A stretch of DNA of 64,000 nucleotides. It comes from Terebella lapidaria. Lineage: Eukaryota > Annelida > Polychaeta > Terebellida > Terebellidae. This document shows, piece after piece, positions 5,385 to 8,375 of the stretch. Every line of letters starts with the position of its first letter. The stretch's first letter is position 1. Both the position numbers and the translations under genes were made by a program. The notes beneath the pieces were generated by a model, which saw only the letters and a program-made list of their open reading frames with translations, did no database searches and had not been told where the DNA came from. The DNA is taken from assembly GCA_949152475.1 (NCBI GenBank), contig OX424567.1, positions 27,739,402-27,803,401 on the forward strand. The letters run 5' to 3'.

Positions 5385-8375
5385 CAGTCCAGTCAAAGTA
5401 GGGGTTAACTTTGAACAAATTGCAACAGAATTTATTTTTGCATAAATGTTAACCCAGAGGTATTGTTAAAACCCTGTTAAAAAATACAAGAAAATCGAAG
5501 AGGGGGAAATACTGTTTTTCAGGGCTTTTTGAAAATGGCCACCGACCTGTCTCGAAAATCATATTTTTAGCTCAACTTTGCTTCTATGACAGATACAGTT
5601 ATGATTTTTGTGTGTATACCCATGTTTTAAGGTACCAGTCATCTAATGCACTCACTTGCGATACTCTATAAACCTTTTCTGCGCCTTAAAAAATTGATAA
5701 TTTTTGGATACAATTTGGACATATTTCCATTGTTTCAGGAACCACTAACATCATGAACATATCAATCAATAATCACGTTCTTTTACACAAAATATATAAC
5801 TCCGAAAGCACCTCATTGTTGGCGGGATAACAAGTAGGCCTACATGTCACCAATGTCTTCATCTTCTGTCGTCGGCGTGAGGGAGTTTGAACAGCTCACA
5901 CCACGACACTCCCCACAAGCCACAGAACACTCTAATCAATGTTTATGACACTTGCAACGCATGGAGGCACAGTCCGATTTACACTTGCAATGAATTGCTT
6001 CCAACAAAGACGTCGGCGCTGCATCCATAGCAGTCTCCTTCGGAACCAATTCTTCATTAGTGTGTGCCCATCCCCACTGTTCAGGATTCATTGTGTTTCC
6101 ATCATTGGAGCTGGTGAGGTGTTTCCATTCTTGGACCTGGTAATACACGCGCATGCTGTGGTACGCCATAGATAAGCAGGATGGGGGCAGATATTTCAGT
6201 TGTACGCTGCTGGTGTTCTTTGATACCTTTTCACAGAATTTCTGATACATCAGCTGGTCCAACGTGCCTTGGAATTTTCCATTGTAGAATGAATGTGATA
6301 AGTCCAGTTTCTCAAGCAGCAACAACATCCGTCACAGAAGACCCATTTCGGTAGAATACCTCTGCAGCTTTGGAGCTTCTTCAGGTTGGTTCCTTTTCCG
6401 ATTCCATAGATCCTTGATTTCGTGTCACAACCAAGAAACGCATGAGCAAACAATAAATGTTTGCTGACGGTATCTCCAAGGACTGCTTTAGTCCTGAATG
6501 CTCCACATCCGGCACTTTTTGCCAGATATTGTTCGCTCTCCAAAGGAGGTGAAGAAGATTTTCTGATGTGACTCAGTATGGTGACAAAACATCACAAGCA
6601 GGTCCGTGTCCTCGCCCAACACGACAGTGGTGTTATCTTCGGCAGACTGCAATGCCTTCTGGACGATCAGAGTGTCAGCATCCCCGGTAGCTTGTGTCAC
6701 CTGGTGTCCATGTCCAAGTAGAGTTGCCTTCAAAATGCCTATAAGCTTATGTTTATTCGACTTTTTCGCCAGGAACTCCTCATTCTCCATGGTCAACTTC
6801 ATGTCTGCTGTGACTTTCACGTCAGCACAATGGGATTGTTTGCCGCTTCTGCGAAGATGGGTGTTGTCTTTTGTCGTTGGACCTGCCACATATCCATCAA
6901 ATACGATGATCTTCTCTCCATATTCCCTCAAGAACGCAACATATTGGCTGCAGATCTCGGCATAGGTATTTCCTTTCATTCACGGAACATGATGCAGGAG
7001 TGCACCACCATCCAACACATACTTGACATTTCGGCTTATCTTGAGAAGGATTGGTCCAAATTGCATCTGCTAGTTGAGACTTTGCAGCTGGTGGAATTAA
7101 TCCCTTGCCCTCAAATAAGGCTGGTGGATAGCTGCAGAGTTCATACGTGAACAGCAATTCCAATTCCCCACATCTTTCACCAGCTGTGATCAATCTTTGG
7201 AAGAGTAGCTGTGGATCAACCTGCACGGAATCCTGACCGACTTTCACATGATTTCGGACTGCAAAGGTTATGGCCTGGTCCTTCTTTCCATACATTCTTC
7301 CCATTCATATTCTGAAGAACTTGTAGCCCAAGTTGCTTGGCAGAATCTACGTTCACTTCTTCACTAGCTACTACTCCACTAGTAATATTGTGGAGTGATG
7401 GTTCTTCCTTGAATGGATCATGTTGTTGAACGAAATCCAACACCAGCAGTGCATCTTGAGAGTCACGATGTTGTCGTGATGCAGAACAATCCTTGTGCTG
7501 CTCGGAAGTGATATAGAAGTTCCTGTGAATTCTTGCATGGTTTCATTCACCTTCGCGCATGCTGGAAGTGATAGAAGCCACACTGCTCTTTGTGCCTCTG
7601 TCATCCCTCTTCCACGTGTTAGACCTCCTGTGGACTTGATACTTCTCATCAAAACCTGCTCAATGACCAAGTCAGTGGACAGACCTGACCAAACCTTCTC
7701 AGTTCGTCTGACGACATGAAGTCCGGACGAAAACTATCTGAACACATCTGGATGACTCTCCGCCAGTTTCGACATCTGATCAAGGTTAATAGCAGCTGAT
7801 TTTGCATGATGGTTATGTCCAGACGCTGCAAAGTGAGGTAGCATTTGTGACACAGCTTTCAACTGTAGCTCCCAGTTCCCCGTTCGTTCAGCTTTGATGA
7901 AAAGGCACATGGTTCGAACAGTATCCAGGTACTGCAGCCACAACTGTGAAGTACGTTTTCCAGTGAGCATAGACATGTGGTCATCTATTTTGCCAGCTAC
8001 TTTCCCCATGACGTCATGGTATTTTTCTTCGCCAAGGCTGGAAGGACTATTCATTAGTTCATCAAGCAGTTGGCCCATCTCCTCAAAATCTTTACAATGA
8101 GTGCCATTTGCTGACAGCGGTTTCTATAGCTGCGCGTGCTGTATAGTACACGTGACCTCGTATGGCGCGCCACCAGGGTAAAATATCATGGTATGACGCT
8201 GCTGAGTTCCTTGCATCAAGGCTTGTTGCCCAAAAATCACATTTTCCCCACTACTATTTCCTTCTATATTTCACAGGGTGGTATCTAGATATTAATGATG
8301 CCAATAGTGGAGAAAAAGTTTCTGTTGCAATTTGTTCAAGGTCTGGCAGGATTTCAACTTAATTTGACTGGACTA
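5385..8375. mobile_element. TIR-bounded element of about 3.0 kb carrying a FEN1/XPG-like pseudogene
   Basis: Block A has about 2.99 kb here that is missing from B (near 38007-38016) and C (near 48786-48795), where the flanks are joined without a scar. The ends are inverted repeats: AGTCCAGTCAAA at the left, its complement at the right, then a subterminal 20-bp match (TTGAACAAATTGCAACAGAA) at about 5413-5432 and again, inverted, at about 8323-8342. Flanking AT or AAT could be a 2-3 bp target duplication, so the boundaries are uncertain by about 3 bp. The only coding remnant is the minus-strand nuclease-like gene. No DDE transposase, recombinase or polymerase was recognised. The element is either non-autonomous or uses this protein for its movement. 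Confidence 0.8.
5880..8140 (-). pseudogene. Decayed FEN1/XPG-like nuclease-fold gene with C-terminal Cys-rich tail
   Basis: Read on the minus strand from about 8140 to 5880, the frames join into one protein of about 720 residues. It matches, from memory, a multicopy family of uncharacterised invertebrate proteins (motifs HHAKSA, TDLVIEQVLMRS, GGLTRGRGMTE, LFTYELCSYPPALFE, LADAIW). The second half carries the acidic residues of a flap-endonuclease fold in order: VLDGG (about 7010), FDGY, GDADTLIV, GEDTDLLVMF (about 6610) and GCDTKSRIYGIGKG (about 6420). The last resembles the FEN1/XPG helix-hairpin GCDYxxxIxGIG. The end is Cys-rich: CKCKSDCASMRCKCHKH, then in a shifted frame CSVACGECRGVSC, reminiscent of CXC/TSO1 zinc-binding repeats. 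About seven frameshifts (near 7725, 7505, 7303, 7045, 6545, 6335 and 5937) and a TGA near 6980 show that it is dead. The role of the family is unknown. Confidence 0.75.

Follow-up and report, generated by a model that had tools for sequence, protein, structure and literature searches.

Background

AcademX DNA transposons are known by a nuclease of the XPG type and by their domain order, and hAT transposons are known by target repeats of 8 bp. The AcademX lineage of the Academ superfamily is recognized in Repbase (Kojima 2020, as cited in a section of PMC10045372), and the latter section gives repeats of 3 or 4 bp for AcademX and of 9 or 10 bp for AcademH, relating them to an encoded nuclease and helicase. 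Academ is listed among the DDD/E superfamilies in a part of PMC9587614, and a part of PMC10294476 gives a mean length of 5,565 bp for curated Academ elements of bivalves. Our literature searches, to which this statement is limited, retrieved nothing pairing Academ with XPG and nothing on DUF6589. Here, we describe an element at positions 5385-8375 of a 64,000-nucleotide stretch (hereafter, the window) of the genome of the annelid Terebella lapidaria (GenBank assembly GCA_949152475.1, contig OX424567.1, positions 27,739,402 to 27,803,401). The element is, with high probability, a defunct AcademX-type DNA transposon copy with an internal deletion, in which a FEN1-like nuclease is the companion of a DDE (Asp-Asp-Glu) type enzyme. 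A preliminary description of the window had put forward the nuclease-like protein as a candidate for a new class of transposition enzyme, provided that intact relatives have the same ends. That reading is supported only in part, and the nuclease looks more like the companion of a known kind of enzyme: longer copies whose ends are alike contain a DDE region, and intact relatives fuse the two. An internal deletion took the Asp motifs of the DDE core, so that the companion nuclease is now the most conspicuous remnant, which answers the claim of a new transposase class.

A transposed unit in a tandem array

The window contains three related tandem stretches, the first of which harbors the element; in the other two, copies B and C, a single ATT without a footprint lies between the flanks of the element (Table 1). 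Because of these empty sites, the agreement of the termini at 12 of 13 bases and an exact inverted match of 20 bases further in, the conclusion that the unit has moved is sound, and the clean empty sites and matching inverted ends of the preliminary description are thus borne out. The target repeats of the window element itself, AAT on the left and ATT on the right, agree at two of the three bases. An element found in only one of three tandem copies may in principle stem from one gain or two losses, so that the stretch could be ancestral, the empty sites being deletions; such a history is, however, hardly credible, given the footprint-free ATT in both B and C and the target repeats of their own that unlinked elements of the same family bear. 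The simpler reading is that the element would have arrived after the tandem duplication.

Table 1. Features of the element, its target site and the corresponding empty sites (window coordinates)
Feature	Position	Strand	Evidence or detail
Whole element	5385..8375	- (gene strand)	Empty sites in B and C, matching ends, same-family copies elsewhere in the genome
Left target repeat AAT	5382..5384	.	Flank compared with empty sites; one mismatch to ATT
Right target repeat ATT	8376..8378	.	Identical to ATT of the empty sites
Left inverted end CAGTCCAGTCAAA	5385..5397	+	3' end of gene side; 12/13 bases shared with right end
Right inverted end TAGTCCAGTCAAA	8363..8375	-	5' end of gene side; minus-strand reading
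Inner 20-base arm	5411..5430	+	Exact inverted match to 8320-8339 (blastn, element against window)
Inner 20-base arm	8320..8339	-	Partner of 5411-5430
Nuclease remnant (FEN1/EXO1-like) with Cys-rich tail	5882..7247	-	Six profile pieces
DDE remnant with conserved Glu segment STDLVIEQVLMR	7617..7733	-	Profile positions 624-662, E 4.1e-15; translation
DDE transposase remnant	7737..8084	-	Profile positions 506-622 of 662, E 5.6e-38
Internal-deletion junction	8112..8113	.	4,278 bp of L009 (810-5087) missing from window copy
Empty site ATT, copy B	38013..38015	.	Flanks continuous
Empty site ATT, copy C	48793..48795	.	Flanks continuous

Coding remnants of a DDE transposase and a nuclease

Profiles of the DDE region (662 positions) and of the nuclease (456 positions), built without the window sequence and with the closely related loci L009 and L010 among their sources, were run in a six-frame scan over the whole window, and their matches lie within the element, in minus-strand orientation. 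The C-terminal part of the DDE profile is matched in two pieces, and the conserved Glu segment reads STDLVIEQVLMRSIKSTGGLT in translation; a third piece, at 7457-7401 (E = 150), was ignored. Across the broken frames of the nuclease remnant, where the two smallest of the six pieces are weak (E = 0.0043 and 0.014), the acidic motifs LDGG, VFDGY, GDAD, EDTD and GCDTKSRIYGIG follow in order, ahead of a Cys-rich tail, as the preliminary description had recognized; the piece with the LDGG motif reads VLDGGALLHHVP in translation, VLDGG included. The same description took the nuclease to be the sole gene remnant and saw no standard transposase, and in both respects it has to be revised: window 7617-8084 also matches the DDE profile, with the Glu segment present and the remainder of the DDE region lying in the deletion relative to L009. 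The window copy has neither the D1 nor the D2 motif, since the internal deletion took that remainder.

A Pfam scan of six window pieces gave no match above a cut-off; a comparison of the window piece alone with solved structures returned CFAP52 (E = 0.038) and EXO1 (E = 0.33); and a 163-amino-acid piece yielded 1 and 34 pattern-matching stretches in viral_contigs and genome_contigs, respectively, none of them confirmed as a relative.

Longer copies and intact relatives

Searching the genome (761.6 Mb in 438 contigs, the window being on contig 14) with the element returned at least 73 matches. L009 spans 7,353 bp end to end, with ends as in the window element and the target repeat GAG, and L010 is another longer copy, with window-type ends and the repeat CAA. 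In both, the stretch deleted from the window encodes, in the direction of the nuclease, a Cys-rich N-terminus and two Asp motifs, namely, DNVDHN together with DGxGTFHGMG, and VTFDQ with LGGLH after it. The reading of L009 is interrupted by frame changes and one stop, and L010 has lost the Glu segment and the beginning of the nuclease to a deletion; because both are interrupted, the single-protein layout was read from related families. The 3-bp target repeats are exact in all eight elements of the window's family with both ends read (GAG, CAA, TTT, TAC, AGA, ATA, TTA and GAA, the last two elements each spanning a pair of fetched loci); L017, L020 and L021, which resemble the window element and have one or both ends unread, stand outside this count.

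The nuclease and DDE regions, used as queries, gave at least 111 and at least 76 matches in the genome, respectively, and 15 related loci were fetched from other families. Six of these have a single open frame (L028, 1491 amino acids; L029, 1503; L030, 1531; L031, 1576; L032, 1470; L034, 1526), and each of the six proteins matches the two profiles, for which these loci had served as sources. Five of the six extend to the last position of the nuclease profile, L032 stopping at position 363 of 456, and the nuclease matches fall into two neighboring stretches in all except L028. The intact relatives thus carry the DDE and nuclease regions in one frame, with the nuclease downstream of the DDE core, and the full protein is one polypeptide consisting of a Cys-rich N-terminus, a DDE (RNase-H-type) core, a FEN1/EXO1-fold nuclease and a Cys-rich C-terminus. 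It is against this background that the original proposal, with the FEN1-like protein itself as the transposase of a nuclease-only element, has to be judged. The window copy, which lacks D1 and D2 and whose most conspicuous coding traces are the nuclease motifs, invites that proposal; yet, the DDE region in the longer same-ended copies, the Glu segment kept in the window copy itself and the common frame in the intact relatives make it very improbable.

Inverted ends were also sought at the 15 loci. In five of these (L022, L029, L031, L032 and L036), the ends match at 12/12 bases, as against 10 or 11 of 12 in the best of 20 shuffles per locus, and the 3-bp repeat is exact; these five share with the window's family the start TAG. 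The end candidates of another five (L025, L028, L030, L033 and L034) match at 8-10 of 12 bases, within the shuffle range; that of L026 is one base off; and the end search gave nothing of use for L023, L024, L027 and L035. L022 and L026 resemble each other along the entire element (98.1% over the longest match) and no further than its inverted ends, and the longest matches of L030 with L033 and of L023 with L024 are 98.9% and 99.5% identical; movement may have been fairly recent.

Two peculiarities of the window's family were also observed. A tandem Asp/Ser/Thr-rich repeat of the SLDGAEDRPTD type, located at approximately 4621-5008 in L009 and approximately 7333-7792 in L010, separates the second Asp of the DDE core from its Glu, and the matches between the two loci are many and overlapping. 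In L011, L012, L013, L014 and the pair L015 and L016, the two arms are oppositely oriented matches to the 3' end of the gene, each coding for C-terminal nuclease sequence, and one end carries 56 bp from the very terminus of the gene's 5' side, joined to the 3' side at a shared stretch of 20-odd bases. These look like fold-back derivatives that moved, because each has its own 3-bp repeat.

Domain identity and classification

The D, D and E residues are each conserved in 15 of the 17 alignment rows, and the structure model of the DDE part has an RNase-H-like order of elements, with a modest fold match. Foldseek gave no match to this model at E ≤ 0.001, the ISCth4 transposase ranking second (E = 0.15), and in a further fold comparison, many of the rows among transposases were winged-helix domains matching model residues 1-70. 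The DDE profile had eight matches among the sequences of solved structures, the best at E = 0.026 and none to a transposase. PF20231 (DUF6589), a family for which Pfam states no function, is matched by 9 of the 23 DDE alignment rows at E values no higher than 1 (best, 5.7e-9); among the six full proteins, L029 alone exceeds the curated threshold of 27 bits, with a score of 32.5 bits, and three have no match to it at E up to 0.1. The correspondence suggests that DUF6589 functions as a DDE transposase core.

The nuclease has a profile match to EXO1, and its model gives fold matches to nucleases of this type. Seven acidic columns are kept in the alignment, which we take to be the active-site positions of FEN1; on the nuclease rows, Pfam reported no XPG family. 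By its modeled fold and these seven positions, the domain qualifies as a member of the FEN1/EXO1/XPG superfamily, with predicted nuclease activity. It resembles EXO1, FEN1, XPG and GEN1 in profile, fold and acidic columns but differs from them in being part of a transposon protein, behind a DDE core.

The name AcademX seems well supported by the features compared. With the AcademX lineage as described, the elements share a DDD/E transposase, an encoded nuclease and short target repeats, exactly 3 bp in the eight elements; the window copy differs as an internally deleted, broken relic. AcademH belongs to the same superfamily by name, but has a helicase and repeats of 9-10 bp, whereas the elements here have 3-bp repeats, and the six full proteins gave no Pfam helicase match. 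Several observations weigh against the assignment and would suit the placement of this DDE transposon, with its FEN1-like nuclease, in another or an undescribed superfamily, outside Academ: the likeness to Academ is one of described features, among solved structures the DDE part is matched best by a hAT transposase (Hermes), and the Pfam label for the matching region is solely DUF6589. We nevertheless regard an origin outside Academ as unlikely, the combination of a nuclease with 3-bp repeats being that given for AcademX in the section of PMC10045372; from hAT, the elements are further set apart by the 3-bp length of the repeats in all eight cases, as opposed to 8 bp, and by the fused nuclease.

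Proposed mechanism

In an intact AcademX-like protein of this kind, the DDE core would most likely cut the element ends and join them to a target site cleaved with a stagger of 3 bp. Any 5' flaps or recessed ends that excision or gap filling leaves behind would most likely be trimmed by the FEN1-like domain. This division of the chemical steps between the two domains is our inference. There is a small chance that the FEN1-like domain performs essential chemistry, for example, by cleaving the second strand at the element ends, the first strand being cut and joined by the DDE core; if so, two unrelated nuclease folds would share one transposition reaction. What the AcademX nuclease contributes would be testable with the long-frame relatives that this genome contains.

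Other features of the window

Elsewhere in the window, an insertion-like unit at 12899-14821 has 480-base inverted arms, 98.5% alike and 963 bases apart; its flanks are continuous in copy C, and it contains no open frame of 100 amino acids. A tandem repeat with a 22-base unit occupies 22824-23170, where a 127-base reference recurs in 11 overlapping copies. An 846-amino-acid open frame on the plus strand (25648-28188) contains abundant leucine-rich repeats (LRR_8, E = 2e-63). On the minus strand, a 299-amino-acid frame (29743-30642) matches DUF3504 (E = 3.9e-33) and Phage_integrase (E = 8.9e-8), a pairing also seen in Crypton-like tyrosine recombinases.
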